Assembly (NCBI GenBank): GCA_903919125.1
Contig: CAIXGS010000045.1
Span: 57,149 to 121,148, forward strand
Source: an uncultured Spartobacteria bacterium
GTDB lineage: Bacteria > Verrucomicrobiota > Verrucomicrobiia > Chthoniobacterales > Chthoniobacteraceae
Direction of reading: 5' to 3'
Length of the DNA: 64,000 bases
The translations under genes were made by a program, and so were the position numbers. The notes beneath the pieces are model-generated. The model was given only the letters and a program-made list of their open reading frames with translations, ran no database searches and had not been told where the DNA came from. Below are positions 11,850-32,167 of this stretch, in pieces; position 1 is the stretch's first letter; the number at the start of each line of letters is the position of its first letter.

Positions 11850-11877
11850 ACGAGGAAAGTCCAAGCCCGAGGAGGCA

Positions 11878-12690: not shown

Positions 12691-14589
12691 TTAAGGATTG
12701 AGACGTAGTGCGTCGGCCATGATCCAGTAGATCATCGACTGCTCTAGCGACCCACGGAAGAGATGCGCGTTCGGTCCCTTGGCGAAAATCGCCACGTCCT
12801 CACCTGCGTGTGTCTCGGAGGACGTAGGAATCGCAGATTCCTGCAAGTAATTTATGTCGGAAGTGATCGCTAAGGTCAAGGAAGGGCGGCCTTTGTCAGT
12901 CGCACTTGCTGTGATACCGGTGGTGGTCCCCGTCGTATAACCATTCACGCCGCCGGCGTCACCGGGAAGCAATGGTTGATTCACAATCACAAATTTCGGT
13001 CCTTGTGCGATGTTTGAGGTGGTCGTCGTTGACGCGCTACCAGAAACCACCTGAGTCCCACCAGACGTCGTCAACGTACCCGAAGTGACGCTGTAAAGGG
13101 CCTGTTGTGTGGCACCCGTATAACCAGGACCGTTCTGATAACCTAAGGTCGAGTATGGAAGCCCCAACCGATCGGTAACTTGAGTGGTCTTGAAGGTATT
13201 CAGCGATGCACCACCCGAAACGATGTTAAAACCAGGTTCCGTCACCAACCCCAGAATCGGGTTACCGCGCACAGGATAACCTGCAATCGTGAACACGTGA
13301 CTGTGGTCGGCGGTAACAACGATCAATGTGTCAGGACCTACCTTAGCTGCAGCAGCGCGAACAGCATCTGAAAGGGCTAGTGTATCGTTCAAAGCGCGAT
13401 ACGCATTGCCTTGGTGATGAGCGTGGTCAATGCGACCGCCTTCCACCATGAGGAAATAGCCGTTCCGATTTTTCGAGAGCAGATCAATTGCAGTGGTTGT
13501 CATATCTGCAAGAGAAGGCTCTCCCGAAGCGTCGTTTGCTCTGTCAGTCTCGTACTGCACATGGCTCGGCTCGAACAATCCAAGCACACGGTCATAGTTG
13601 GCTGGGTTGTTCTTCACGGCATCGAACATTGCCTTATTCCACACATACGCGGAACGAGGATTGTCCGCCGGAATTGTGCTGTTATAAGTACCAGTAGATA
13701 GGTTCCAAGCGCGATTAGGGAGCTTCGTCCATTCGCTAACCAAGTCGCGGCCAGCCGCAGCGCGCCTTCCTTTTAAATAAGTGTACTCGGGATCCGCCTG
13801 AGTGTTCTTCATGAAATAAGCGCGGCCGCCCCCAAGGACGACGTCTAAGCTCTTGCCACCGTTGCTGTCAAGCAACTGGGCAGCAATATCCTTTGTAGTA
13901 CGGTTAGTCCCATACGAGCCCGTGATATTGGTGTCTGCCTCCCAATCACGATCGGAAGAGTGAGCATAACAGGCGGCTGGGGTTGCGTGAGTAACGCGTG
14001 CGGTAGACACGACACCTGCCGACATGCCACGGGCCTTGGCCTGCTCCACGATGGTCGTCAGCTTCTGGGCGTCGGTTGCATCGTTGCCGCGAATCACGTC
14101 AGCAGTAACACTAAGCGCGCCATCATTATTTTTGACGCCAGTAACCATTGCCGTCATTGTCGGGGCGGAGTCGGAAACCTGCTGATTCACACTATAGGTC
14201 CGGGAGAGCGCCGCGTAAGGGAACTGTTCAAAGCTCAGCAAGTTCTGCTCGCCTGCGCTGTAGCTACCAGAACCCAAAGTACCATACATCCCATTCTTTT
14301 GGCCTTCGAAGATTCGAGCCGCAGTAATCGTCGAGACGCCCATGCCGTCCCCAACAAACAAAATCACGTTCTTAGCACGCGTGGGAGGCAACTGGTAAGA
14401 CTGGGTCTTGATCGCGTTGAGCTTTGTTTTGTTGGTGAGGATTTGGGCAGACTTGGATTCGTCCGTGACTGGTCCGGCAAACATTGCAGGAACAAAGAGC
14501 GTCTGGCTTAGGGCCAGCACTCCGGCGGTGAGCATTCCGGGAACGCCAGAGCGCTCGCGGAACGTATGGAGGATGGTGGTGTTTTTCAT
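12691..14589 (-). CDS. Secreted alkaline phosphatase, PhoA family
   Basis: 632-residue periplasmic or extracellular phosphomonoesterase of the PhoA superfamily (two zinc ions, one magnesium). Visible active-site parts: metal ligand D81 in VGDGMGVST; nucleophile S141 in VSDSAPTMTA; HATPAACYAH; EGGRIDHAHHQGN; TADHSHVFTIAGYP; and ETHAGEDVAIFAKGP with its zinc-binding His. An insertion of about 90 residues rich in Gly, Ser and Thr lies between the NGPGY and ETHAGEDV motifs. The N-terminus has a hydrophobic export segment (about 19-38). It starts 45 bp downstream of the autotransporter stop on the same strand and is probably in its operon, which ties both to phosphorus acquisition. Confidence 0.93.
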   Translation of the reverse strand: MKNTTILHTFRERSGVPGMLTAGVLALSQTLFVPAMFAGPVTDESKSAQILTNKTKLNAIKTQSYQLPPTRAKNVILFVGDGMGVSTITAARIFEGQKNGMYGTLGSGSYSAGEQNLLSFEQFPYAALSRTYSVNQQVSDSAPTMTAMVTGVKNNDGALSVTADVIRGNDATDAQKLTTIVEQAKARGMSAGVVSTARVTHATPAACYAHSSDRDWEADTNITGSYGTNRTTKDIAAQLLDSNGGKSLDVVLGGGRAYFMKNTQADPEYTYLKGRRAAAGRDLVSEWTKLPNRAWNLSTGTYNSTIPADNPRSAYVWNKAMFDAVKNNPANYDRVLGLFEPSHVQYETDRANDASGEPSLADMTTTAIDLLSKNRNGYFLMVEGGRIDHAHHQGNAYRALNDTLALSDAVRAAAAKVGPDTLIVVTADHSHVFTIAGYPVRGNPILGLVTEPGFNIVSGGASLNTFKTTQVTDRLGLPYSTLGYQNGPGYTGATQQALYSVTSGTLTTSGGTQVVSGSASTTTTSNIAQGPKFVIVNQPLLPGDAGGVNGYTTGTTTGITASATDKGRPSLTLAITSDINYLQESAIPTSSETHAGEDVAIFAKGPNAHLFRGSLEQSMIYWIMADALRLNP

Positions 14590-14634
14590 TTTGATGTGTG
14601 GTTGATGAACTTGGTTCGCTTCGGGAAATGTGGG

Positions 14635-17600
14635 TTAGAACTGTACTGTCAGGCCGAGGTTCACGCCGGGTTGGTTGCTGCCGTCGCGAATTTGCCAACT
14701 GCCGTTGAGACGGGCGCTGGTGCGGGGGGAAAGGGCAACGCTCGCGCCCAACCCGAGCTCGAAACCGTCGGCGCCGAAGGCATCGCCGCTAGTCGTGTAG
14801 CTGCCAGCCGCAGAGCTTGCTCCAGAGAAACGCGTGTTCACTGAGCGCGCTGCACGGTCGAAGTCGTGAATCCAGTACGCCGACGCCAGCAAGTTAGCGG
14901 GTTTCGTACCAGCCTTGAAGCTGCGGGAAATCGCACTGCCCAACCGAGACTGCCACGCGCTCTTACTCACGCGATCGGTTGTGAGAGCCGCGCCGTCTGC
15001 GGTCGCTTCCGAGACACCGTTTTGACTGTACCCATTGCACAGCAGGGCTACTGAAGGCGTCACCAAATACGAGCCCGCCACATTTGGAATATTCAACCCA
15101 CCGCGAAGATGAACGGCGTACTCACTGGACCGGAATTTTGCACTGGTCGAAGTGGCGTACGTTCCCACAGAGACAGAGCGCGCAGACGTTTGATCGATGC
15201 TACCCGCGAGCCAGGACACGTCGAAGAACGGCATCCCCGCTTCGATGTGCGCGTACATACCTCCGTGGAAACTGTCGCCCTTCACGCTCGAACTGGAGAA
15301 CGTCGCGCTCGAATAGCCCGTCGCACCGAACACCCCGAGGGAGAGTCCCTTGGTGGTATGTTGCACGCCGAGGACCTCGCCGGCATTCGTGCCATTCCAT
15401 GAAGCGCTACCCGCGGTGGAATCACGGTGAATGCCCCAAGCGTAGGATTCACTCCACGCCGTCCATCCGTCGTGCTCACCCTCAGGGAAAGCGGTAAGGT
15501 GTCCCTGCAAGGCTTCGCTGATAGCAGACGTCCGACGCAGTGAAAGGCGCTGGGCCTCTGCGTATACTTGACCGTTCAGTGATGCGAGGCTGGCTTCCAG
15601 CGCGGCAGCGTTGGCGGACACGTCAAGCGCTGACAGTACGGCAGTCAGTCCCGTGTTCGGAGAGAGCGCGGAGGCTGTGGAAAGGTAATTCCCGAGACCT
15701 TGCAGCCTCGCGTTGGTCACAGCACTTCCGTAAGCCGTCTTGGAAATGGTGAGCGCGAGTGCTGTGCTATTGCCGGTCAACGTTCCATTCAAGAGGAAGG
15801 AAGTGGTTTCGAGAGAAACGCTCGGGGTTCCAACGATGCTGGCGGCGGAGAACACACCACTAAAGGTCGTGCCTACCGTAACAAAGCTGCCGTAAGGACG
15901 GATCAACACGGTTGAACCGGGAACAAACGTCAAGGTGCCAGCCACGACGACTTGGTCGCTGATGACCGTCGTGCTCGGAGAAATAACGCCGTACTCTATG
16001 ACAACCGAGCCAGTGCTGCCGATTGTCAAATCCCCGCCCGTTGTCGTAGTGCCTGTGGTTTTCGAGGCGACGGTGAAGGTGCCGGGCGAGTTACCGGGAG
16101 AGAAGACGCCGCTAGTCACAACCGACCCCACCAGAGTTCCGCCACCGCTCAACGTCTGGGACGCCGTGAGGGTCAGGCTACCACCAGAGAGACTTGTGAC
16201 GTCGAGAGTAGGTTTTTCGCCCGAGGTCTTCCCGATCTGGAGTCCCGTCGTCGCGATGCTCGCGCTGCTGCCCATTGTGACTGTGCCGTTTCCAGAAAGC
16301 GACAAGGTGCCGATCCCTGAAACAGTACCTGGGAAGGAAATGGAGCCGCTGCCGGAGCTCACAGTCAACGGGATCGTGGAATCGTTCATCGTCACGGTGC
16401 CCGAGGGCAGATCCCCGGAGATCGTCGCTTCCACGCCCTTGGCGATCATGATCATCCCTGTAAAATCAGAGTTTCCTCCGGCAAAGTTGACCTTCCCAGC
16501 GCTGAGCGCGACGCTACCGCCACCCGTCAACGCCGGAACGCTCATCGTGGTGGCCACGTCCGCAGGATTGATCGTCATTTTCCCGCCGGACTCCAATGCG
16601 ATGGTTCCGCCTGTTCCGAAGCTGCCAGTCAACTCCGCCGCGGCGCCAGACGCCAGAGAGACGGTACCAGTGAAGCCGGTGCTCCGAACCAATTGGACGC
16701 TACCAGAGGAAATTGACAGCTTCCCTGTACCTTCCATGGAAGGAAGAGCCATCTTTGTGCCAGGAGCCGTCGGCGCAACATTGATATTCCCATTCGCTTG
16801 GAGCGCGCCTTTAAAATCTGGAGCAGCTTCCTTCATCAACGCAGTAACGCCTAAGGGAACGGCGACCGTGGTGCCTGACTCCCCGCTCAGGAACGAACCC
16901 TTCAATTCGGGCGTTCCACCATCAGTAGGGGCGAGGGTGAAGGTCGACCCTTTGCCCAATTTCACCTTGGTATCCAGCGAAGGCAGCGACAAGTTGGAGT
17001 TCTCTCCGATGGAGTTAGTCACGGACGCGCCAGTTCCACCTGTGATCGTAACAGTGCCGACTTTGATCAGCCCCTGACCCAGATTGAGCACTGTGACCTT
17101 GTCCAAAATATTGGAGGCGAGAGTCAAGGTGCCCGGACCACGGTAAATGATGTTGGTACTGGCTTTGTCTGTCGCGCTTAGCGACGAGGTATCAAGCTTT
17201 GTACTGAGATCAATGGAACCCGTGTTGATGACTAGCGAAGCGCCGCCTGACAGAAGCGAAACGGTCCCAGAAGCCAGCGAGGCGCCGGTATCAATGGTCA
17301 AAGTACCTTTGGCGATGGTGGTATTTCCCGAGAAGAGACTCGAGGCGCCAAGGGTCAGGTTTCCAGAGCCGACTTTTGAGAAGCTCGCCGAGCCAGAGAT
17401 CACTCCCGAATAGTAGGAGCTGGTGTTGTTGTTGCCCACCGATAAGGCAAACCCGCTCGGCAATGGAAGCCCGCCAGAACCTGCCAACCCGCCCAACGTC
17501 GCCGAAGAGCCCGTGAAGAGAACGTTTCCTCCGTTGATGACCGTAACCAGGGTCGCGCTGCGAACAGCGTCTTTGTTGCCGATCACAAGAGTGCCGGCTG

Positions 17601-20600
17601 CGGCTACCAAGTTGCCTGAAAACCCTGCGACCCCCGAGCCGGAGATAATGACCGAACCAGTTGTCAGGGCTCGTGTCACAAACAAAGATCCATTGGAGTC
17701 TAGGGTACTTTGAGACATCCGTCCAAGCTCCAGAGAACCGCCGCCTGTCACAAAGCTAGTGAGTGTCGTGTTTTGGGAACCTGTATCGAAGACTGCGCTG
17801 CCAAGGACTTGCAATGGGCGAGAAAGAGCAAGATCGCTCGTGCCTGCATAGACGAGCGCGCCATCGGAGAACTGCACGGAACCCGAGGCGTTCCCTAAGT
17901 TCGAATTGGAGGAGAAAGCCAACGTGACTCCACCTTCGAGGCTGGTTCCGCCTGGGTAGGTATTCACACCAGACAACTCCACTTGCGTCCCGCTGTTTCC
18001 AGTCACGGTTAGCTTTCCAGTCGTCGCGCCCACACCTCCAGCAATCACACCCGACCATTTAATACTGACATCCGTGGCATCAAGCGTGGCACCCAGCGCC
18101 CCGATCGTGATGTTCCGTGCTGTGACTGGAGTCGCGGACAATGTGGCATCCACCGCTAAGTTAGGCACAATCTGCAAACGAGCGTTGTTGAGCTCAATCG
18201 CCAGCAGCGAACCTGAAGCGAGCGTCCCAACACCAAGAACCGACGTATCGGCGGTGTGCAGCAGACGCAGTGTTGTTCCCTCGACTAATGTGATTCCGCT
18301 GTATGCGTTACTCGCACCCGACAGAAAGAGGGCACCGTCGCCATTTCCCTTCACATACAATCCACCCGTGCCAGCGCCTGAATCCGCCACAACACCGCTG
18401 AGTTCCGCTGTGTTGGAGCCCACATCGACGGTCAGTTCCGTATCGAGAAGAAGCGTATTGGGAATCTGCGCAGACGTAGTAAATCCAAGAGTTGCATTTG
18501 TGAAGGTAACGGCGCCCGTCCCAAACACACGACCCGAACCATAAACCCCGTCATTATTATCATCGGCGCTGTTCACCGCAACATCCACACGAGTCCCCTC
18601 AACGGTGGTCCCGCCGGTGTAACTGTTCACTCCTCCAAGACGTACCGTACCAAAGGGGTGTCCCGTGATTCTCAAACTTCCGTAACCGGAAATATCACCA
18701 TTGATCGCGAGCACGCTTTCACCGCCATCTAGGCGGGCCTCATCCTCGACCACAATCGATGAAGATACCGCTTGGTTCACCCCCGCTTGAATCCCCGCGC
18801 CCGAGCGAAGATTGATGGTGCCGGCACCTATGCTGAGGCCACCATTCAAGCGAATGAGCGAACTCTGAACCGACAAATCACCGCTCAACGATCCGGATCC
18901 AGACAAAGTTAGGACCGAGTTCGTGCTCCCAAGTACCGTGAGAGGTACCGCCGCAGAAACCGTACCAGCAAACTCAACGGCGTTGTCCCCAATGTCCACC
19001 GTTGTCAGCACGTCAGATACCGTCCCCGCATTGAACCGAATGTTGTTCGGGAGCAGAACACTCTCATCAAAACCGAGCGTTGCCCCAGCCTTCACAGAAA
19101 TCGGGCCTTTTCCCGCAGCAGAGGAAACCAGGACCCCGCCCACGGTGACCGATGGCGAACCAAGAACCAACTTACCCTCGTCCAAAACTAAACCACCCGA
19201 AAAGGTATTGGCGCCGGTCAAAGTCAACTGCTCCGCACCTGTTTTGCGAATGGAGCCGGATCCAGAGATATCAGCCCAAATGGTTTGGTCTACAGTCTGA
19301 TTGGCCGTGTTGATGGTAAGCGTCCCAGCGCCAACCGTTAAAAACGCAAGTTTCGAGTAGTCGTTGTCGCCCGAAAACTGGACATTCGCTGTACCAGCAG
19401 GGATGGTGAGGGTCTTGTTCTGACTCACCAAGTTCACCGCATCGTCTTTCCAGTCGATAGTGATGGAGCCGCCGGTGTTGACAGCAATCGAGGTGAAGTT
19501 TTGAAGAGCACCTGCAACGGTCATCCCGGTGCCTGTGTTGATGTTCAGGTTGCTCACTACGCCATCCACCGCCGACGCTAAAATGTTCCCCTGAATCGTG
19601 GCGTCATCCGTGAGGTAGAGATTGAAGGTGTCCCCCGTCGCGGCGAGCGGGGACTTCGGATTGCTGAGGCTGACTTTGGCCCAGTTCTGCGTATTAGAAG
19701 AGTAATTGGAACCCGTGTAATCTGTAAGCGAGCGCCCGAACTGGTCCACATAAAGCTCGGACTTCGCCAAAGCGATCCCGTTGGCTACCGCAGCAAAAAA
19801 GGCTACCGGAGCGTTGATTAGGTTAGGGCTAGTCACCGCAGCGCCGTCATTCCATAGGACCCGCCCGCGTAAAAAGTCGCCCCAATAGAACTCGACGAAA
19901 TTCACATCAGCCCCTGTCACGGGGTCCGACTTGTCGAATCCTGCCAGCTTCTTACCGCCCACGTTAGTGGCGGTCTTCACAATGCCGTCGGCCAGGCCCC
20001 AAGTCAGGCTGCGGTACAAGTCGTTGGTCATGCTTGCCGTGCCGGGCGTTGTGGGCATCGCGACACCTCCAGCGATTGGGAGAATCGGCTGCAGCCCGGA
20101 ATAAGTTGCCGTCCCTTGAGTTTCACCTGGCTGAATAAGTTGGTTGCCGTTGGTCCCGTAAAGGTAGGCGTTGTTTGAATTTGCAAAGTCGGTCCACATC
20201 TGGTCGTTCACCGAAGTCTGAGAAGACGGATTTGAGACAATCGTTCCCAAGACGATGTGATTTTTTCCAGCGATAATCGCCGTTCCTCCAGATGCCAAAT
20301 AGCCCGCGGTAGTATGATGACCATCCGTGATGTACCCCTTGCCATCAGGCCCAATGATTATGGGGAGGTTTTTCTTGGTCCAATAGCCGACCAGGTTGGA
20401 ACTCGTGCTTGGGCTCCCGTAGTTGTAAATCGTATTCCCGTCGGCGTCCGTCGAAGTTGTGGCGGAGGTAAAGCCGAGGGACTGAAAGAAGAGGTTCTTG
20501 TACGCGACCTCCCGATAGCCAAGGGAACGCTGGGTCGCGTTTAGCAAACTGCCTTCGGCATCCATGTACACCGGAGTACCAACCGCGAGACCTGCAGCAA

Positions 20601-23040: not shown

Positions 23041-24054
23041 ATCAACGCGGTGTGTGTTAATTGGCCGCCCTGCCCTAGGCGAATGGTTTACCGTAACAAG
23101 TTCGCGCCAGATATGTGTCAGGAGTGTTTCAGACAACTCAAGCCACTTTAGTCCAGCCACTTAAATCGCACAAAAACGCACCGAATTACTCCGCTTGTGG
23201 AATCTTTTAAAGACGAAAAACCCGAAAATGCCCCCATGAGGCAACTGCCGAGACCAGACGCCATGAGGCTTAGAATTCGCAAACAGCTGATTAAAAATTA
23301 CCTAGCTCTTCGAATTCCACTAAATACAAGCCCGCTAACTATTTAAGATTATTTATAACCCAAGCAACCGCTACCTTAGAATGACCGCGAGACGGATCTC
23401 GCAGAGAGATCATCTAAATTACCACAAAAGCCACAGAGAAAGATATTTGTGCAGCAAAACGGTTGACGCAAATAGTTTGAACTGCCGCCGGATCCGAACT
23501 GGCTCTGTGTATGAGTCGCTTAAAGACTTCCCGAAAAAGCCTATCCCCGAAAGGGTTGTAGAGAAACGCGGCGTCCGCTCCCGCTGGAATTTATAACTTA
23601 CCCGCATCACGCTAAAAATTTTCCACCTCACCTTCTTATAGCAAACCATTGATCTTCAGAATTTTTTGCATCGGCACCCCAACGAAAACTCAGAATCAAA
23701 CTCGACACACATGATTTTCGAGCGAGCAGTTCAAAGCGCTCCCGAACCAACCGCGAGTCGCCACCCTAATATTGAACCGAACGATCAATCGTTCCGGGAG
23801 CGGCGATAATCCCTCGTGATGGAACGCACCTGCCGAGAGGATTTTTCCAAACAAGTCACCTTCATCCAATGAAATGAGCACGAAAGGAACCCCGTGCGAC
23901 TCGCCAACCAAATCCCGAACAATCACATGGGAGGAATCGCCAAAAGATCCTCAACACGTCCCGCCCCATTGGCACGCGGATCAAAGCCCGACTCCCTCGT
24001 CCAGAAACGGTCAACGCAATTCACTCCCAAAATTGGAGAGCATCGCTCCAAACT
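23041..24054. other. 1 kb non-coding region between autotransporter and phoD
   Basis: No intact gene. 23041-23375 is AT-richer upstream DNA of the autotransporter gene and likely holds its promoter; 23116-23131 on the plus strand loosely resembles a Pho box (TGTCA and TTTCA at 11 bp spacing). 23378-23807 is a decayed methyltransferase copy (separate entry). 23820-23930 is open on the minus strand as IVRDLVGESHGVPFVLISLDE..., which could be another coding remnant, but I cannot assign it. 23930-24054 shows nothing I recognise. Confidence 0.6.
23378..23807 (-). pseudogene. Decayed copy of the SAM methyltransferase gene at 28111-28830
   Basis: Direct comparison shows that this stretch matches the intact minus-strand methyltransferase. 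23460-23637 aligns with 28231-28407 at roughly three-quarters identity by eye, and 23702-23807 aligns with 28551-28653 at similar or better identity. Weaker similarity extends to about 23378. Several indels break the frame. About 80 bp matching 28471-28551 are missing; in the intact gene they encode the glycine-rich SAM-binding motif FGCGKGR and the following strand. The first 60 or so codons of the intact gene have no counterpart. The remnant lies just downstream of phoD and the intact gene just upstream, in the same orientation. Confidence 0.85.
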
Positions 24055-27000
24055 TTACTTTGAAAGCTGGAGCATTGCAGAACCAAAAAGCCCAGCACGG
24101 GTCTCAAGGGGTGTCCGCAGGAGTCCGCCGCCGACAAGTCCGTCTAACTGGGCCTGCGCGTCTTGAAGAAGGACTCCGTACGCATTGGCGCGAATCCCCA
24201 CAGACGAACGTGCCGCAGAAGGGAACACAAGCGCGCCTGAAAAACTCCCGTCCAACGGATTCACTACTCCACTCCATTGGACGTTGGTGGCATTGTTGAG
24301 GGGTGCGAGGCGGAGACCGGAATCAAGACGGAACTTAGTCGGAAGACCCCTCAAATTAGGCGTCGCGTTGGAGAGACCGGCACCGTCTGTTTCGAGTGTA
24401 AAAAGCCTATCAGTAAGGCCTAAGGCAGTTGCGAGGCCGGTATACGAAGAATTCGGAACAAATCGGCTGACCCATGCGCTGATTTGTAGAGGCGCGGCAA
24501 AACTGCTCGGGGCGTAGCTGTCCGCCGTGTCTGCCTGCCGGTGCCAAGTGAGCCCTGACGACAAACGAGCCGTTGAACCTAGCGTTTGCGTGATGTTCTT
24601 AACGTCAATCACACCCCCAACATAGGAAGCCCGCGACCGATAAGGTTGCACCCACACAACGGTTTGACCGCTCGCACTCGCGCGCAGAGACGCTGAGACG
24701 GGTTTGGAGTCTCCAAGCATCCCCGTGAGGATGACTCCACCTTGACGCGTGGCGAATCCCTTCACCCAGCCAAACCCAGCCGGATACGTCACTCCATCCT
24801 GATCTCCGCTGTCAAACAACCCAGTGATTTTGCACTCCTCCGTCGGTAGTTCGCCTGCACTCGCAAGACGCACACCGCGAATGACTCCTGTTTCCGTTCC
24901 CGCTGTATAGGTGCCAGAAATCAAGGGTAATTCTCCCCCCAAATTAATCGTTGTCGAAACGGCCGCACAGTTCCCCTGCGCTGGGAAATTAATGTTAATC
25001 GAGGCGGTGGTCGTTCCCGGAGCTGCACCGAAGGTGCCGGTTACGCTGCGCTGAAAGGCGCCGGCGAAGTCAAGGGATGCCGTCCAACGTCCAAGGCGAG
25101 TCAGAGAAACACGCAGGACACCCGAGGGGGTTAACAATTTTCCTGTTTCCAACACGGACTCGAAGCTGCCAGAAAGAGCCTCTGGCAGGGCTTCCACGGT
25201 GATCCGGATGGTGCTGGTTTTTACAGTGGTGGAACCGCTTTTCTCCAGAACATCAAAACTATACGTGCCGACTGAGGCTGACACCTTGCCGGAGAGAATC
25301 CCAGTCGTAGCATTGAACTGGAGACCACTTGGAAGCAGAGTACCGCTCTTGAGCGCGAGCTGAGTCGCACTGCTTTTGAGGTTGCCGAAGTTCAAACTCA
25401 CCGTCTCGCCCACACGCACCAGTGGCTCGCTCACGGTTACTAGGAGCGTCTTTGAGGCCGCCCCCGTGGTGTTGGTCGCTGTCAGCGTCACGGAATAAGT
25501 ACCAGCAGCCGTCGCCGTGCCGCTGATCAAACCCGTGCTCGAATTGAGACTAAGACCACTCGGCAATCCGGTTGCAGCATAGGTCGTGGGCGAGTTGCTT
25601 GCAATGATCTGGTAAGACACCGAGGTAAACTGAGTGCTCGTCGCAAGTGTCCCGCTGGTGAATTGGGGCACAGGAACCGAATGTAGAAGACCGGAGGCGG
25701 TGTCCTTCGCAATACTGAAGCTCTTGCGATTGAACTTTTTGTCCAATTGACTAGGGGTCAGGCTGTAAAGATTGTTATACACCTCTGTCGTGTCGATGGT
25801 TCGAGTCTCGGCCACAAGAGCCGTTGAGCCTGCACTGAACACCGTGTAGCCGTGAGCCTTGGTATTGATGTCCACCATTTCGGGTGTGACATCTTTGATG
25901 AAGGAGTCAGAAGCATCAACGAGAGCCTGCTTTTGCGTCGCGTTCATTGCGAACACGCCAGCTGTAGAGCCGGTCGCTTTACGCAGCGAAGAGGTGATCA
26001 AACCTTCCACCGTGGCAATGGCGCCGTCAAACGCGGCACGGAATTCGCCCGAAGTCGCCGACGGCACCGTGACGTCAAAAACATTCTTCCCTGTTACGTC
26101 GGTGGTGGTGCCGCTCAGCGTTCCTGAACCCGCGAGCTTGCCGAACATTGATGCATGAATGTCCCCCGAAACAATCACGGCATTATATGCTGCAAGCAGG
26201 TTGACGATACCTTGTTTGAACTGGGGAAAACCTGAAACCTCATCCGCATTGAGGAGATACTTCACTTTGAGTACGTCCGGAATGAAACTCGTCATCCCAA
26301 GCGCGCCCGGGGTGATCGGCGCGCCGCCAAATGTCCCCTGCGTCGGGAGCAACGAAGAAAGCGCTGAAGTCGTCGTGCCGTAGTTCACCCGGATCGGAGT
26401 GAACGGAGCAGAACTCACCACCATCCGCCAGTTGTTCTGCGCCGCGGCACTCGTTCCCAAAGCCGTCGCCAAGGCATTCACTTGGGCGTTTGTGTAAAAC
26501 GCCTGATCCCGCCCCAAGGCTCCAGAGGAGGCGATCCAAAGCTGGTAAGTGTATGCTGCGTAAATGGAGAACGTGTCGTTCACCAACTGGTAGCGGGAAC
26601 CGTACTCAGAAAAGAAGGACTGTTTCCCCATGAGGTAATAGGAAATCCCTCTCGGTAATGACGCGGCGGCAGTGTCGGAAATTTTAAGACTGGTAGCGCC
26701 TGCGGCATCCAGCATCGCGTTGATGTACAGGACTCCAAGCTTCCCTGACACCTTGCTCGTGGCGTAGGCGGTGCCAGTCGAACCGCCAATTCCTGCACTA
26801 GCAATTCCCTTAAGTGTCGCTTTTAAAACAGCGTTTTCCGAAGCATCAATATCAAGATAGGCATCAAAACTCGCCTTTGCCGATGGCCATGCATATAATT
26901 GAAACACACTTGCACTCAGTCCGTTGGCGGCGGCAAGAACAGCAATCACCCCGTCCTGATCCACTGCAATCGAGGCAGGAAACGCGTCCTCGGGAATGAT

Positions 27001-28014
27001 GTGGTCGGGGCGGTCGCTCCGGTTGTCGGTGAGAATGAGATCCAGATTTTTCCCAAAGTTCATCGCGCCTGTGAGCGTGGCGTTGGGAAAAAGGTTGGAA
27101 GTTCCAGTCTGAACCGCGGTTGAGGAAGCATTCAGCCCAAGCTTGTTTGGAATAAACTCCAGCCAGACTTGCTCGGAGTTTTTCTTGCGCTGGGTTTCTT
27201 GTTCGGAGGTGTATCCGTTCAAATACGTGGCATTGTCCTTCCAACTGTCATCGGAGAACTCGTGGTCATCCCAAACACTCACCATCGGGAAGAGCTCATG
27301 GAGCCGCTGCAACTGGGGATCCTGACGGATGGTTTTGTAGATATCGCGGTAATTCCCCACGGACTGCGCTGCGTAATAAGTCGCACCGCTGGCACTGGTG
27401 AGAGGAATCGCCTCTGATGGATTCGTCAAAGTCATCGACCGCGCCGCAGACGTCGTCTGGAAACTAGGATTACCAGTCGTTTCGTAGATGTAGTCCCCAA
27501 GGTTCAAAACAAAATCGATCTGATCTGCCTCCTGCTCGCACAAATGCTTTAATACATTGAAATAACGGCCCACGTAATCATTGCAAACAATGGATGCGTA
27601 CTTCACCTGACGCGTCGAACTCGCAGACGGGGCCGTCTTAGTGCGCCCGATCGGAGAACGCGTCCCATTGTACGTAAACTGGTAGTAGTAATAAGTGTCT
27701 GCTTGCAGACCTGAAGCCACCATCTTTACCACCCCATCATGTGAGGTTTGCGCCGTAAGTTTGCCTCCACTCCACAGGTTGGTCCCGGACAACTCCTCAT
27801 GACTGCCTACGAGAGCCAACGTGCCCGAACTCGAGATTTTCAAACTCACCAACCCATCCGCACCCAGCCCAGCGACCCTCGTCCAGAGCACCACAGAACC
27901 ACTGCTAGGGTCGCCAGAAGCAACAGACTGTGGAAACCTTGGGTTGCCGGTGGCAAGGGACGCCACGGTGGTAAGCAGAAGGCAACTGAGCAGAGCGAGG
28001 ACGGTTCTCATCAC
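24055..28014 (-). CDS. phoD: Secreted PhoD-type phosphatase with Ig-like and beta-rich C-terminus
   Basis: 1,319 residues. Signal peptide about 1-22. PhoD N-terminal domain: PQSVASGDPSSGSVVLWTR (28-46) and the DTYYYYQF strand. Metallophosphatase core: SIVCNDYVG, NLGDYIYE (D174), VWDDHEFSDDSW (248-258) and IVSGDIHASMFG. PhoD enzymes are calcium/iron-dependent phosphodiesterases or phosphomonoesterases that release phosphate from organic sources under phosphate limitation. After the core come a putative Ig (He_PIG-like) domain with LPSGLSLNSSTGLISGT, a second such segment, and about 370 residues of Gly- and Ser-rich beta sequence of unknown role, perhaps for surface attachment. The family core is usually 450-600 residues, so the C-terminal extension is large. 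The gene begins 96 bp downstream of the methyltransferase. Confidence 0.92.
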   Translation of the reverse strand: MMRTVLALLSCLLLTTVASLATGNPRFPQSVASGDPSSGSVVLWTRVAGLGADGLVSLKISSSGTLALVGSHEELSGTNLWSGGKLTAQTSHDGVVKMVASGLQADTYYYYQFTYNGTRSPIGRTKTAPSASSTRQVKYASIVCNDYVGRYFNVLKHLCEQEADQIDFVLNLGDYIYETTGNPSFQTTSAARSMTLTNPSEAIPLTSASGATYYAAQSVGNYRDIYKTIRQDPQLQRLHELFPMVSVWDDHEFSDDSWKDNATYLNGYTSEQETQRKKNSEQVWLEFIPNKLGLNASSTAVQTGTSNLFPNATLTGAMNFGKNLDLILTDNRSDRPDHIIPEDAFPASIAVDQDGVIAVLAAANGLSASVFQLYAWPSAKASFDAYLDIDASENAVLKATLKGIASAGIGGSTGTAYATSKVSGKLGVLYINAMLDAAGATSLKISDTAAASLPRGISYYLMGKQSFFSEYGSRYQLVNDTFSIYAAYTYQLWIASSGALGRDQAFYTNAQVNALATALGTSAAAQNNWRMVVSSAPFTPIRVNYGTTTSALSSLLPTQGTFGGAPITPGALGMTSFIPDVLKVKYLLNADEVSGFPQFKQGIVNLLAAYNAVIVSGDIHASMFGKLAGSGTLSGTTTDVTGKNVFDVTVPSATSGEFRAAFDGAIATVEGLITSSLRKATGSTAGVFAMNATQKQALVDASDSFIKDVTPEMVDINTKAHGYTVFSAGSTALVAETRTIDTTEVYNNLYSLTPSQLDKKFNRKSFSIAKDTASGLLHSVPVPQFTSGTLATSTQFTSVSYQIIASNSPTTYAATGLPSGLSLNSSTGLISGTATAAGTYSVTLTATNTTGAASKTLLVTVSEPLVRVGETVSLNFGNLKSSATQLALKSGTLLPSGLQFNATTGILSGKVSASVGTYSFDVLEKSGSTTVKTSTIRITVEALPEALSGSFESVLETGKLLTPSGVLRVSLTRLGRWTASLDFAGAFQRSVTGTFGAAPGTTTASININFPAQGNCAAVSTTINLGGELPLISGTYTAGTETGVIRGVRLASAGELPTEECKITGLFDSGDQDGVTYPAGFGWVKGFATRQGGVILTGMLGDSKPVSASLRASASGQTVVWVQPYRSRASYVGGVIDVKNITQTLGSTARLSSGLTWHRQADTADSYAPSSFAAPLQISAWVSRFVPNSSYTGLATALGLTDRLFTLETDGAGLSNATPNLRGLPTKFRLDSGLRLAPLNNATNVQWSGVVNPLDGSFSGALVFPSAARSSVGIRANAYGVLLQDAQAQLDGLVGGGLLRTPLETRAGLFGSAMLQLSK

Positions 28015-28031
28015 ACCACTCTCAACCCTTG

Positions 28032-28053
28032 AGATGGCATTGCGGTGCCATCT
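28032..28053 (-). promoter_or_regulatory. Hairpin in the phoD leader
   Basis: Perfect 8 bp inverted repeat (28032-28039 with 28046-28053, 6-base loop), 18 bp upstream of the phoD start. A second, overlapping 5 bp hairpin is at 28021-28033. No T-run follows on the minus strand, so this is not a typical terminator of the upstream methyltransferase; a leader structure affecting translation or stability is possible. Confidence 0.35.
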
Positions 28054-28110
28054 AGGTTACTAAGCTGTGATTTAAGAGCCCGATCTCTTATCCTGTTACC
28101 GCGCATCGCT

Positions 28111-28830
28111 TCAAACCAAGTCTGAAGCAAGCGACGGCATCCTTAAAATCACCGCCAAAGACTGACCTCCTAAGGAAATTTTTTGATCCACCAAAAAACC
28201 CGCATCCAGAAACACTTGGAGAGCAACAGGGTTCACATAAATAATTTGAACTGCCTCTGGCTTGCCATGGGCTCTTTGTTTGAGTCGCTCAACGACTTCG
28301 CGAAGAGGATTGCCCACGAAAGGATTGTATAGAAACGCCGTGATCGCTCCCGCTGGAAGTTCAAACTCAGCCGCATCGCCCTCAAAAATTTCCACCCGAC
28401 CGTCTTGGAACAACGCACTCGTCTTGCCTAGATTACGCCTGCACGCCGACGCAAGCTCAGAAGCAAACTCAACACCCCAAACTTTTTCGAACCCGTGCAG
28501 TGCCGCGAGAATCAGCACTCGCCCTTTTCCACAACCAAAGTCGACAAACGTCGACGCGCATGATTTTGGGGCGAGCAGTTCAAAAAGCTCCCGCACCAAC
28601 CGAGGATCGGCGCCCTGATATTGAACCGAACTGTCAATCGTGCCGGAGGCGATGGAAAGCGACTCCAACTTACAAGGCGACATCGTGTCGACCCGATACC
28701 TCAGGTCAAACAGCAATTCCCGCCACAAGAGTCCGACGCTGTAACGCATCCCGTGGCGGCGCATAAAGTTCCAAGCGATATTGGCATACTTAAAAACCGG
28801 AGGTGCATCGGATAAGGAGAACGTTCGCAT
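28111..28830 (-). CDS. Class I SAM-dependent methyltransferase, substrate unknown
   Basis: 239 residues from the ATG at 28830; the open frame continues to 29037, but that part overlaps the divergent btaA start and looks non-coding. Motif I is FVDFGCGKGRVLILAA, followed by the acidic strand-2 end GVEFASELA, EGDAAEF, and motif IV AFLYNPFVG (an NPPY-like YNPF). This resembles a widespread bacterial methyltransferase family of unknown substrate. It does not obviously look like BtaB, the N-methyltransferase of betaine-lipid synthesis, though its place next to btaA makes a lipid role worth testing. It is divergent from btaA, precedes phoD by 96 bp on the same strand, and has a decayed paralogue downstream of phoD. 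Confidence 0.85.
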   Translation of the reverse strand: MRTFSLSDAPPVFKYANIAWNFMRRHGMRYSVGLLWRELLFDLRYRVDTMSPCKLESLSIASGTIDSSVQYQGADPRLVRELFELLAPKSCASTFVDFGCGKGRVLILAALHGFEKVWGVEFASELASACRRNLGKTSALFQDGRVEIFEGDAAEFELPAGAITAFLYNPFVGNPLREVVERLKQRAHGKPEAVQIIYVNPVALQVFLDAGFLVDQKISLGGQSLAVILRMPSLASDLV

Positions 28831-28971
28831 TATTTTTTCGTTAAAGTCAGGTGACAAACCGGTTCCAATCTTGCTGTGGTGCCAATTTCCGTTGCCGGTT
28901 AGCAGTGGCGTGCCGAAAGTAAGCGCCCGCCGCGCGTCGACTTGACGCACACGGCTTAAAACGAAAAAATA
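28831..28971. promoter_or_regulatory. Divergent methyltransferase/btaA promoter region with 12-bp inverted repeats
   Basis: The 147 bp between the two divergent starts is bounded by the same 12-mer, AACGAAAAAATA, once on each strand: 28831-28842 (minus strand, touching the methyltransferase ATG) and 28960-28971 (plus strand, 6 bp before the btaA GTG). A TTGACG at 28942-28947 could be a -35 element for btaA; with the A/T-rich 12-mer as -10 the transcript would be nearly leaderless. Neither start has a Shine-Dalgarno site. The repeat is seen; its function is inferred. Confidence 0.4.
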
Positions 28972-28977
28972 TCTCGT

Positions 28978-30174
28978 GTGAAAGCGCTCTCCAATTGGAC
29001 CACCAACCGCATCTTTTCTTACGTCCACGGAAACCACCTTGTCTACAATACTTGCTGGGAAGATCCCCGGTTGGATCGCGAGGTGATGAAATTAACCACT
29101 TCCGACGAGGTGGTTATGATTACTTCCGCAGGCTGTAATGCCCTAGATTATGCCTTGGACGCCCCACGCAGCGTCCACGCCGTTGACATGAATTTCCGCC
29201 AAAACGCTTTGCTGGAGCTCAAGATCGCGGGAATACGCAAGCTGGAGTTTGAGGATTTTTTCAGCCTTTTTGGCGACGGCGGAAATCCCCTCTTCCCCGA
29301 GTGGTACCGCAAAGCGCTTCGGGACGAACTCTCGCCGCAGTCTCAAAGTTATTGGGATCGGCGCACTCATTTTTTCAGTAGGAAAAAACCCAGTGATTCT
29401 TTTTATCACCGGGGAACCACCGGAGCGTTCGGGAGACTTTTAGCGACCTACTGTAAACTCAACGGTATTTACGAAGATGCTCTCAGGCTGTTTACCTTCG
29501 ACACATTGGAAGAGCAACGGGAGTTGTACTTCGGAAAAATTCGAGACCGCTTTTGGGGAGAGGGCATTCGGCGGGCGCTGCGTACCGACATCGCGCTGAG
29601 TATGATTGGGGTTCCTCGAGCTCAGAGAGATCATCTGGAAGCCACTTGTGCCCAGAGTGTTTCTAGCTTTATGGAAGACTCCATGGAAGCTGTTTTCACG
29701 CGCCTTCCCACCGCGGACAATTATTTCTGGAGACTCTATCTTGCCGGCCGTTATACCGAGTCCTGTTGCCCAGAATACCTGAAGCGAGAGAACTTTGAGA
29801 AACTCAAGGGCGGGTTGGTCAACTTGGTTCACACCCACACTAATAACTTAACCAGCTTCCTTCGTTCTCATCCCGGACGTTTTTCGCGCTTTGTTCTTTT
29901 GGATCATATGGACTGGCTAAGCACCCAGGACAGCACGTTGCTCCAGTCAGAATGGCAGGCAATTTTTGATAAAGCGCAACCCGATGCAATGGCACTTTGG
30001 CGCTCAGGAGGGTTCGAAGTCGACTTCGTGGATCCGCTCCAGATCGACCACGCAGGGCAGACGCGCCGAGTTGGTGACATGCTAACGTACGACACCGCAA
30101 CGGCCGCCGACTGCCATCAGCGAGATCGCGTCCACACCTACGGAAGCTTTTACATCGCCCGTTTAAATCCTTGA
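28978..30174 (+). CDS. btaA: BtaA: diacylglycerol 3-amino-3-carboxypropyltransferase (DUF3419)
   Basis: 398 residues, GTG start at 28978 (the next in-frame ATG would remove conserved motifs). BtaA moves the 3-amino-3-carboxypropyl group of S-adenosylmethionine to diacylglycerol, giving diacylglyceryl-homoserine, the precursor of betaine lipid DGTS. In known bacteria this is induced by phosphate starvation. Family-defining sequence is clear: IFSYVHGNHLVYNTCWEDPR, MITSAGCNALDYAL (49-60), SVHAVDMNFRQNALLELK (65-82), the C-terminal VLLDHMDWL, and DRVHTYGSFYIARL. It stands divergent to the methyltransferase and is followed at once by a GNAT-like gene (11 bp). A plcP-like gene converges from the other side. 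No btaB homologue is recognisable in the window. Confidence 0.93.
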   Translation: MKALSNWTTNRIFSYVHGNHLVYNTCWEDPRLDREVMKLTTSDEVVMITSAGCNALDYALDAPRSVHAVDMNFRQNALLELKIAGIRKLEFEDFFSLFGDGGNPLFPEWYRKALRDELSPQSQSYWDRRTHFFSRKKPSDSFYHRGTTGAFGRLLATYCKLNGIYEDALRLFTFDTLEEQRELYFGKIRDRFWGEGIRRALRTDIALSMIGVPRAQRDHLEATCAQSVSSFMEDSMEAVFTRLPTADNYFWRLYLAGRYTESCCPEYLKRENFEKLKGGLVNLVHTHTNNLTSFLRSHPGRFSRFVLLDHMDWLSTQDSTLLQSEWQAIFDKAQPDAMALWRSGGFEVDFVDPLQIDHAGQTRRVGDMLTYDTATAADCHQRDRVHTYGSFYIARLNP

Positions 30175-30185
30175 ACCAAACCGCA

Positions 30186-31361
30186 ATGGTAAAGGTCTCC
30201 CCTGCGCCCGCAAACGAGCCAACCGGAGAGCTTAGATTTTACGCTGCCCAGGACGCCCTCCGCGCGCTGGAAAAAACGAAGGATCCGAACGCCGACTACT
30301 GGCGCCTTTTCCTCACGCACGAGGCCCACACGCTCGCGCCTAATTTCAAAACGCAAACCGCCGTCATCAGCGACGGGGAGTACTTTTCACCCGTCACCGT
30401 ACACAACAACGAACCGGACAATTCCTACCCGTGTTCGCTGCAAACCCAGTACGTGCAGTATCCACTTTCAGAACTGGGATTGGTACCGTCCAAGGCAATG
30501 CGGTTAGCTGGAGCGCTCGGTCTGAGAGCATTGGGTAGCATTTTAAAATACGGCTTGGTGGATCGCACCGTGCAGTGGAACTCGTGGCTCCTTTCTACAA
30601 ATCTACAAGCACCGGATAATCTTATAGATGCTCAAGACGCGACTCACGTCCTTCTTCAAAAATTTCCGAACCACGCTGTTCTCGTAAAGAACATCCACGG
30701 ATTTGAAACCACAGCCGAATTAGAAAAGTTCGCCCGTCTCGGCTACCAACTCGTAACAAGTCGCCAGATTTATTTTTTTGACGGCAGAAATCCGACGTAC
30801 CTCGCCCGCAGTGACGTGAAGCGGGACTTAAAATCGCTGCGCGCCCTCAAGGATTATCAGCAGATTGAACACCATGAATTCGTCGCGGATGACGCCCCAA
30901 GAATCGCTGACCTTTATCGTATGCTTTATCTCGAAAAGCATTCTGAACTGAATCCGAGATACACAACTTTGTTCGTACAAAAAGCTCTCGAACAAAAGCT
31001 TCTCGAGTTTCGCGGCCTGCGACACAGCTCTGGTAGAATCGACGCCGTTTTCGCCTGCTTCCGGAGAGGTGAGGTGACCTCCACTCCTTTTATCGGCTAT
31101 GATACGGCAATCCCCAATCAGCACGGATTTTACCGGTTACTCGTCGCGATGTTATTGGAGCGCGTCGCGGAGCAAAAACTACTCCTGAATTACAGTTCGG
31201 GAGCCGGTGAATTCAAACGGAGACGCGGGGCAGAGTCTGCCATTGAGTACAACGCGATTTACACAAGGCACCTTCCACTCAGGCGCCAATTACCCCACTT
31301 ACTTTTGGAGCAGGCCGCAAACCGGCTTGGAAAGCGGGTCTTGGTGGAAAACCAAATCTAA
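30186..31361 (+). CDS. GNAT-like acyltransferase-type protein linked to btaA
   Basis: 391 residues from the ATG at 30186; a TTG at 30171 overlapping the btaA stop is also possible. I see no Shine-Dalgarno site, so translational coupling to btaA is likely. The C-terminal half resembles the GNAT/FemAB-like fold: RIDAVFACFRRGEVTSTPFIG, GFYRLLVAMLLERVAEQK and SSGAGEFKRRRGAESAIEY, a pattern of acyl-transfer proteins that use acyl-CoA, acyl-ACP or aminoacyl donors. The N-terminal half has no recognised domain and no clear membrane span. Placement directly behind btaA suggests it acts on the homoserine lipid or its precursor; this is inference. Its stop overlaps the convergent plcP stop by 4 bp. Confidence 0.7.
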   Translation: MVKVSPAPANEPTGELRFYAAQDALRALEKTKDPNADYWRLFLTHEAHTLAPNFKTQTAVISDGEYFSPVTVHNNEPDNSYPCSLQTQYVQYPLSELGLVPSKAMRLAGALGLRALGSILKYGLVDRTVQWNSWLLSTNLQAPDNLIDAQDATHVLLQKFPNHAVLVKNIHGFETTAELEKFARLGYQLVTSRQIYFFDGRNPTYLARSDVKRDLKSLRALKDYQQIEHHEFVADDAPRIADLYRMLYLEKHSELNPRYTTLFVQKALEQKLLEFRGLRHSSGRIDAVFACFRRGEVTSTPFIGYDTAIPNQHGFYRLLVAMLLERVAEQKLLLNYSSGAGEFKRRRGAESAIEYNAIYTRHLPLRRQLPHLLLEQAANRLGKRVLVENQI

Positions 31362-32167
31362 GATAAGGCATTTGGCCCAAGAGGTGCCACTGCTGGTTCA
31401 GGCGTCTCTGGGGCAACGTTTCGCAATGGCTCGGAGTGCCCTGTGTGCACAACCAGTTCGATGACGCCTGATTGATCCTCAATAAGCGCGGTCAGGCTTT
31501 CCACCCAGTCCCCTGAATTGAAATACTCCAAATCCCCGATGTTTCGAATGGCTGGAGTGTGAATGTGGCCACACACGACTCCCTGGACGTCTTTTTCCAT
31601 TTTAACAAGACGAGCCACCGCAGATTCAAAGGCCCCGATATAATTGACCGCGCTTTTGACCTGCCGTTTCGCCGCCGCGCTGAGGGACCAAAAACTCAGC
31701 CCGAAAAGCTTACGGAACCAATTGATCGGAGTATTCAAGCGCAGCAGCAGCGCGTAGCCGAGGTCGCCAACATGGGCAAGCCACTTGATATTCTGCACGA
31801 CGGCATCCAATTCGTGGCCGTGGATCACCAGTAAACGCCGACCATCAGCCGTTGTATGAATCGCACGTGGCATCACCGTAACCGCGCCGTACTCGCCGTG
31901 AAAGCCGGACACGAATTCGTCGTGATTCCCCGGGATGTAAATGACTTGCGTCCCCTTTCGTCCAGCTCGCAGCAACTTCTGGATCACGTCGCTATGCGCT
32001 TGCGGCCAGTAGATTCCACGCTTGAGTGCCCACACATCTATTAGGTCACCCACGACATAGAGAGTTTCAAATTCATAGCATTTCAGAAAGTGCAGAAGAG
32101 CTTCGGCCTGACACCCTCGGGTGCCCAAATGAACGTCTGAAATCCAACCTGTTCGACAGTGGCGCAT
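31358..32167 (-). CDS. plcP: PlcP-like phospholipase C (LpxH-like metallophosphoesterase)
   Basis: 269 residues from the ATG at 32167, chosen because it directly precedes the first metal motif. Calcineurin-like metallophosphoesterase: ISDVHLG (D11, H13), VVGDLIDVW (D41), PGNHDEF (N81, H82), VIHGHELD and VCGHIHTP. The stretch ALKRGIYWPQAHSDVIQKLL plus RAGRKGTQVIYIPGN is very like the PlcP group known from rhizobia, where the enzyme cuts phosphatidylethanolamine and phosphatidylcholine to diacylglycerol under phosphate starvation. An LpxH (UDP-diacylglucosamine hydrolase) role is the alternative, but the btaA neighbour favours PlcP because it supplies the substrate of BtaA. The C-terminal tail is Pro- and Ala-rich. 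It ends in a 4 bp convergent overlap with the GNAT-like gene. Confidence 0.85.
   Translation of the reverse strand: MRHCRTGWISDVHLGTRGCQAEALLHFLKCYEFETLYVVGDLIDVWALKRGIYWPQAHSDVIQKLLRAGRKGTQVIYIPGNHDEFVSGFHGEYGAVTVMPRAIHTTADGRRLLVIHGHELDAVVQNIKWLAHVGDLGYALLLRLNTPINWFRKLFGLSFWSLSAAAKRQVKSAVNYIGAFESAVARLVKMEKDVQGVVCGHIHTPAIRNIGDLEYFNSGDWVESLTALIEDQSGVIELVVHTGHSEPLRNVAPETPEPAVAPLGPNALS

Follow-up and report, generated by a model that had tools for sequence, protein, structure and literature searches.

A tandem-GNAT gene takes the place of btaB beside btaA in a clade of Verrucomicrobiota and may lead to an amide-capped homoserine lipid

Introduction

The closest known counterparts of the locus analysed here are the operons for diacylglyceryl trimethylhomoserine (DGTS), in which btaA is followed by btaB. 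An excerpt of Sebastian et al. (PMC4796936) describes a plcP-btaA-btaB arrangement (type 1), with btaA and btaB downstream of plcP, in strains including Phaeobacter sp. MED193, and already reports PlcP in Verrucomicrobia. We analysed a stretch of 64,000 nucleotides (the window) from an uncultured Spartobacteria bacterium (assembly GCA_903919125.1, contig CAIXGS010000045.1, positions 57,149 to 121,148; genome of 4.34 Mb in 87 contigs, 95% complete), which resembles the btaAB operon in its BtaA-family gene with an intact core, in a plcP gene near btaA and in a partner gene directly after it. It differs in that a tandem-GNAT transferase gene replaces btaB, which was found neither in the locus nor in the genome, and in that plcP is convergent with this gene rather than upstream of btaA.

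MprF, which acts on a lipid, and FemX share the tandem-GNAT fold with the protein of the window, whose family also lacks the loop pattern of coenzyme A (CoA)-binding GNATs. They differ from it in that no sequence-level similarity was detected, in that the window protein is the GNAT part alone and in the predicted acceptor, here an amine on a homoserine lipid. Homologous GNAT proteins also occur in plasmid clusters with beta-ketoacyl synthase III (KAS III), where four rhizobial records pair the GNAT gene with a gene of the BtaA family (DUF3419); the DUF3419 protein is there a short form, and chain-building genes are present in the cluster. The OlsH/OlsG/OlsI ornithine-lipid route of planctomycetes, as described in an excerpt of PMC12493201, is another amino-lipid pathway, alike in forming an amino-acid membrane lipid, in N-acylation and in an N-methyltransferase gene alongside, but it has no diacylglycerol backbone and employs GH3-like and alpha/beta hydrolase enzymes. 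A search of titles and the beginnings of abstracts, with most subscription journals outside its reach, returned nothing that describes btaA paired with a GNAT gene, nor any diacylglyceryl homoserine carrying an acyl or aminoacyl group.

Results

A tandem-GNAT gene at the position of btaB

The proteins of the window were scanned with Pfam and NCBIfam, which recovered in their places the PhoA, PhoD-like, giant phytase-like, BtaA and PlcP-like genes that a first-pass annotation had named within 20 kb. Two genes had been overlooked, one encoding a GNAT protein between btaA and plcP (30171-31361, + strand; PF13480, E 4e-6) and the other an S-adenosylmethionine (SAM) methyltransferase divergent from btaA. 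The fixed replacement of btaB by the former is the interesting feature of the locus. The btaA gene (28978-30174, + strand) encodes a predicted diacylglycerol 3-amino-3-carboxypropyltransferase, or homoserine lipid synthase, with a full-length PF11899 (DUF3419) match over residues 13-395 (E 1.8e-112), and its relatives align from residue 1 with a common GTG/ATG start. The GNAT reading frame begins at a TTG codon, overlapping the last 4 bases of btaA, with an ATG 15 bases further in.

To follow this arrangement among relatives, BtaA was searched in 197 genomes of the order (matched in 19 at E <= 1e-10) and in 387 genomes of the phylum (matched in 30 at E <= 1e-8). BtaA of the window's type was present in 10 genomes of the order sample, namely the source genome and nine relatives at 65-75% identity, and the GNAT gene directly follows btaA in all 10; three genomes of the same genus (G096, G116 and G144; 82-93% complete) gave no btaA match. 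Two peptide patterns listed at least 23 GNAT loci, each 7-19 kb long, 9 of them from these nine relatives. Wherever the upstream side was visible (22 of 22 listed loci, and two more genomes, G278 and G450), btaA lies directly upstream of the GNAT gene, although L073 begins inside the GNAT gene, btaA of L067 is in two pieces and that of L069 is cut by the contig start. The named cassette records are metagenome-assembled genomes; three of them (L054, L061 and L068) are labelled Akkermansia muciniphila, the others Verrucomicrobia, Verrucomicrobiota, Verrucomicrobiales, Spartobacteria or Chthoniobacteraceae. The species name looks like a mislabel, because L054 and L061 agree in contig number and length with G108:C185 and G128:C63, contigs of relatives from the window's own genus.

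The locus types were named by the neighbour gene, so that what the following counts add is the non-mixing of the types and their agreement with the BtaA tree. The 30 loci of the phylum sample comprise the window's own, two further GNAT-type loci (G278 and G450), 13 long-form loci directly adjoined by btaB and 14 with neither neighbour, the last being short-form or distant DUF3419 genes judged within 1.5 kb flanks; second, short DUF3419 copies in G324 and G465 were left out of this count. The order sample adds 9 GNAT-type, 4 btaB-type and 5 loci with neither. In total, the long btaA loci of Verrucomicrobiota divide into 12 of GNAT type, all in the window's clade, and 17 of btaB type, and none of these carries both btaB and the GNAT gene. 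In this count, L092 shows btaB only as a piece scoring 40 bits where the contig ends, L013 has its btaA split in two, and L015 matched btaA only in part. Distant relatives of the GNAT protein (27-29% identity) were found in G206 and G372 of the phylum sample.

The BtaB of S. meliloti was then searched genome-wide in all 12 GNAT-type genomes and in 10 genomes chosen from the 17 of btaB type. In all 10 controls it scored 60-168 bits directly beside btaA; in the GNAT-type genomes, which are 62-99% complete (two at 99%), only generic methyltransferase scores of 27.6-38.9 bits were obtained, none at btaA, and the best score in the source genome was 29.7 bits on another contig. The first-pass expectation of DGTS as an end product is thus unsupported, since BtaB was not found genome-wide and the GNAT gene holds its operon position.

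In a FastTree phylogeny of 55 DUF3419 proteins, the 24 GNAT-linked verrucomicrobial BtaA proteins all fall together (support 1.0), and their sister group is formed by 14 BtaB-linked BtaA proteins of the phylum (0.948; both together 0.996); another verrucomicrobial BtaB-linked protein, that of L014, groups with R. leguminosarum instead. BtaA itself is little changed across the swap and keeps its core residues: 41 residues are invariant across the 24 GNAT-linked and 16 BtaB-linked proteins, including that of R. leguminosarum, and only 3 positions discriminate the two kinds.

Short-form DUF3419 genes of Verrucomicrobiota (L017, L094, L099 and similar) precede a membrane-protein-like gene, which has no better hit than a CTP_transf_1 match under the cut-off (L094 and L099), and the DUF3419 gene of L017 is preceded by one encoding a PEP-utilising mobile domain; these loci are perhaps a different three-gene unit.

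Extent of the conserved unit

The conserved unit consists of btaA and the overlapping GNAT gene, with the divergent methyltransferase gene and the convergent plcP as looser members. The plcP gene (31358-32167, - strand; PF12850/PF00149) adjoins the GNAT gene in the window and in 4 of the 23 listed loci (L053, L054, L055 and L062). It encodes a phospholipase C-type metallophosphoesterase with 45% identity to an S. meliloti homologue, which we take to be the assayed PlcP, and with intact D-x-H, GD, GNHDE and GHIH motifs; its score against the NCBIfam LpxH model is under the cut-off (53 versus 134 bits). PlcP was matched in 22 of 25 genomes searched, and because these include G096 and G144 of the same genus, which gave no btaA match, it is not tied to the BtaA-derived lipid.

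The phosphatase genes lie outside the unit. The flanks of the 23 listed loci gave no match to phoA or phoD, and the giant phytase-like protein was represented near the cassette in one relative only, by a 39% piece (L032, the same as L074). At E <= 1e-20, phoA was matched in the source genome and in 5 of the 11 btaA-bearing GNAT-type relatives (in G124 at 36% identity only) and was unmatched in the other 6; in all 5 it lies on a different contig from btaA. In G112, G160 and G054 the btaA contig runs at least 40 kb on the phoA side, without a phoA match. The proposed 20-kb module of phoA, phoD, btaA and plcP was therefore rejected on synteny: relatives keep btaA-GNAT and sometimes plcP, their phoA genes are scattered, an outcome that the first-pass annotation had itself named as refuting, and phoD, judged on flanks only, is missing beside the cassette. 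What stands of the proposed coupling is the lipid-renovation part, the BtaA/PlcP unit, whereas the link to outside phosphatases was seen in this genome only.

The tandem-GNAT protein

An AlphaFold2 model of the GNAT protein (mean predicted local distance difference test score, pLDDT, 93) adopts a tandem-GNAT fold. Ranked by Z-score, its best matches are FemX (16.5; 280 residues, 3.9 A), Sbb17, a peptide synthase that depends on aminoacyl-tRNA (16.5; 260 residues, 3.5 A), the MprF/aminoacyl-phosphatidylglycerol synthase domain (14.5-16.0), and mycothiol synthase and N-myristoyltransferases (12.4-13.2); the top Foldseek matches are MprF, L-PGS and Sbb17. Among 56 GNAT homologues, none has at the matching place the pattern [QR]xxGx[GA], which we take to be the pyrophosphate loop of CoA-binding GNATs, and a motif NYSSGAG-x-FKR-x-RG is almost invariant. 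The SGAGxFKRxRG part of this motif may resemble FemX, MprF and bacterial ceramide synthases, although a literature search on the last of these turned up nothing of use. Conserved residues of the GNAT protein include K349 and R352. No Pfam family beyond PF13480 was matched at E up to 10.

Outside Verrucomicrobiota, the family was found in 12 plasmid records at 31-39% identity. In 4 of the 12 (Rhizobium and Shinella) the GNAT gene directly follows a short-form DUF3419 gene, and these are all of the short-form matches (H9-H12), covering residues 19-337 or 33-359 of the BtaA query. One of these rhizobial short forms was placed in the tree, far from the window's BtaA, so the DUF3419-GNAT association probably arose independently there; from this second pairing, the GNAT protein would act on the product of the DUF3419 step. 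Nine of the 12 plasmid regions were inspected, 8 annotated and one without a gene table. In 6 of the 8, genes for KAS III, an oxidoreductase, a metallo-beta-lactamase (MBL) protein and a CoF/F390 synthetase-like enzyme (assigned by annotation, in one region by position only) lie beside the GNAT gene, and the order in the annotated region bearing DUF3419 is KAS III, oxidoreductase, MBL, CoF synthetase, DUF3419, GNAT. An ATP-grasp gene directly precedes the GNAT gene in Paraburkholderia and lies elsewhere within the Paenibacillus cluster, and in three regions the GNAT gene is immediately followed by a Rieske gene. Two Deinococcus records show a two-gene unit ending in the GNAT gene; ATP-grasp was considered as the partner there, with a below-cut-off match (E 0.0029) in one record and none in the other, and was set aside.

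Clusters of this KAS III, oxidoreductase, MBL, CoF-synthetase-like and GNAT composition stand on plasmids of Rhizobium, Shinella, Paraburkholderia, Roseateles and Paenibacillus (among L044-L051), and the literature search returned no description of them.

The divergent methyltransferase

The gene divergent from btaA (28111-28830, - strand; PF13649, E 1.8e-6) encodes a class I SAM methyltransferase with DFGCGKGR and NPF motifs. A longer reading frame runs to 29037, inside btaA; position 28830 is the methionine at which the homologue P0127 (239 aa) begins, and the database entry P0125, of identical sequence, is called longer (305 aa). The protein was aligned in 31 rows, and its AlphaFold2 model (pLDDT 87) falls in Foldseek among class I methyltransferases, the top matches including lysine, N-terminal and other N-methyltransferases. 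A search of the source genome with the BtaB of S. meliloti (E <= 0.001) hit two other places but not this gene.

The gene stands beside btaA in 19 of 24 judgeable GNAT-type loci (the window and 18 listed loci). The five loci without it (G108, G128, G168, G278 and G450) were judged by a genome profile search, and the cut loci L069 and L073 were left out. With this profile, 7 of the 12 GNAT-type genomes gave a match and none of 13 others did. Its role as an obligate substitute for BtaB was weakened by its absence from the other 5 GNAT-type genomes, and we read it as an optional tailoring step. A broken second piece of the gene, with four stops, was detected by profile (E 4.6e-10) at 23396-23662 (- strand), between the giant gene and phoD; this relic points to a duplication or an insertion by which phoD came to lie beside the lipid genes.

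Phosphate control

The divergent promoter region (28831-28977) contains at 28840-28864 a candidate operator, GTTAA-N17-GTT. This pattern, chosen by eye from the same btaA upstream regions in which it was later counted, is present in 4 of these 22 regions, starting from -138 to -147 (the window, L053, L054 and L062); besides the source genome, these are three of the four relatives with an adjacent plcP. It occurs once in the window, where 1.07 matches are expected by chance, and was not found at the genome's pst genes, with one match elsewhere in L125. No Pho box of the E. coli type stands out at btaA, plcP, phoA, phoD or the genome's own pst genes, and a canonical Pho box scan gave 1 match, outside the locus, versus 3.3 expected; as the pst promoters are themselves without one, the test is silent rather than negative. 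The genome carries pstC above the cut-off twice, one copy being surrounded by frames that read, by eye, like pstS, pstA, pstB and phoU, and its best PhoB-like regulator scored 259 bits, under the cut-off of 296. The btaA-GNAT unit may be linked to phosphate starvation.

Neighbouring genes

The PhoA-type alkaline phosphatase (12691-14589, - strand) matches PF00245 with E 4.8e-119. The PhoD-like phosphatase (24055-28014, - strand) has Ig-like repeats and matches PF16655 (E 3.3e-17), PF09423 (E 3e-36) and PF05345, far under the NCBIfam PhoD cut-off (106 versus 1000 bits). Between them, the giant gene (14635-23040, - strand; reading frame extending to 23160) encodes a protein that unites a phytase-like domain (PF13449, E 9.6e-28), a ParB-like nuclease domain (ParBc_2, PF08857) and PATR repeats (PF12951). 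The first-pass description of an autotransporter with a phytase-like domain is borne out for that domain; the C-terminus resembles an autotransporter barrel by eye, and the Pfam scan of the protein gave no barrel match. A lipase maturation factor gene (LMF1 with its C-terminal domain; 32459-34060, + strand), of a family best known from animals, adjoins plcP and was unmatched at related loci. At 9609-11864 (- strand), a single protein fuses trypsin-like (HtrA-like) and transglutaminase-like domains (PF13365 and PF13369; Pfam/NCBIfam).

Discussion

We propose, with a probability of about 0.45, that the btaA-GNAT pair builds a homoserine membrane lipid free of phosphorus, with its amine capped by an amide rather than trimethylated. 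Judging from homology, PlcP would cut phospholipid to diacylglycerol, and BtaA, whose core residues are kept, would transfer the 3-amino-3-carboxypropyl group from SAM onto it, forming diacylglyceryl homoserine. In the next step, the GNAT protein would link the free amine to an acyl donor through an amide bond, in place of the trimethylation by BtaB. We favour such an amide-forming transfer on account of the fold matches, the missing CoA loop and the near-invariant motif, and the mutual exclusion of btaB and the GNAT gene fits it on chemical grounds, as a trimethylated nitrogen could not be acylated. Aminoacyl-tRNA is the favoured donor, with fatty acyl a close second; the former would yield an aminoacyl-homoserine lipid, a phosphate-free counterpart of the aminoacyl-phosphatidylglycerol of MprF.

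Several observations weigh against this proposal. FemX appears only at Foldseek rank 44, after several acetyltransferases and a glycine N-acyltransferase, and the rows of MprF, Sbb17 and FemX have low query TM-scores, of about 0.37-0.50. A fold is not a donor, and that of the model favours the aminoacyl-tRNA-dependent branch without fixing what is transferred. PDB searches gave no sequence-level match to aminoacyl-tRNA-dependent transferases, the only hit being a chance match to a carbohydrate esterase, and a sequence link to a relevant solved structure was accordingly dropped. The company of KAS III and CoF synthetase on plasmids suits fatty-acyl or other amide chemistry equally well, and in genomes with the divergent methyltransferase the amine proposed to be capped could still be methylated by that enzyme. 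Finally, the btaB-to-GNAT swap probably happened once, so the 12-to-17 split does not amount to 29 independent observations.

The same methyltransferase underlies a different, unlikely explanation, in which it displaced BtaB non-orthologously and the pathway still ends in DGTS or a partly methylated form of the homoserine lipid, with the GNAT protein acting elsewhere. Its frequent place beside btaA, its confinement to GNAT-type genomes among those searched and the N-methyltransferases among its Foldseek matches would all fit. However, in five of the 12 GNAT-type genomes, including two that are 99% complete, neither the methyltransferase nor BtaB was matched, which makes it unlikely as a general substitute, and the position of btaB after btaA was taken by the GNAT gene, not by the methyltransferase. 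It is decidedly unlikely that diacylglyceryl homoserine is itself the end product, with the GNAT protein merely co-inherited and modifying another substrate: the unchanged BtaA core would agree with this, but btaA and the GNAT gene are paired at every locus with a visible neighbour and overlap by 4 bases in the window, and rhizobia show another pairing of DUF3419 with a GNAT gene.

We also regard as improbable the first-pass reading of a single module for phosphate starvation that combines external phosphatases with internal lipid renovation and yields DGTS or diacylglyceryl homoserine. All of the named genes do lie within 20 kb, in a genome with two pstC copies and PhoB-like regulators, but phoA and phoD are missing from the related loci, phoA lies on another contig wherever a relative has it, neither a BtaB match nor a Pho box signal was obtained, and the broken methyltransferase piece that separates phoD from the giant gene suggests local rearrangement.

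A bolder reading, which we hold tentatively, at somewhat less than even odds, is that BtaA and a tandem-GNAT lipid transferase together make N-aminoacyl (or N-acyl) diacylglyceryl homoserine, a new class of phosphorus-free membrane lipid for which this clade of Verrucomicrobiota traded DGTS. The rhizobial pairing of DUF3419 and GNAT genes suggests a chemistry that extends beyond a single phylum. In surveys, btaA serves as a marker of betaine lipids; an excerpt of PMC13086504, for example, lists it with btaB among membrane-remodelling genes. Should the clade possess btaA and the GNAT gene without btaB, surveys based on this marker would predict the wrong lipid there, and, if the proposal is true, a candidate class of amino lipids with named genes becomes testable.

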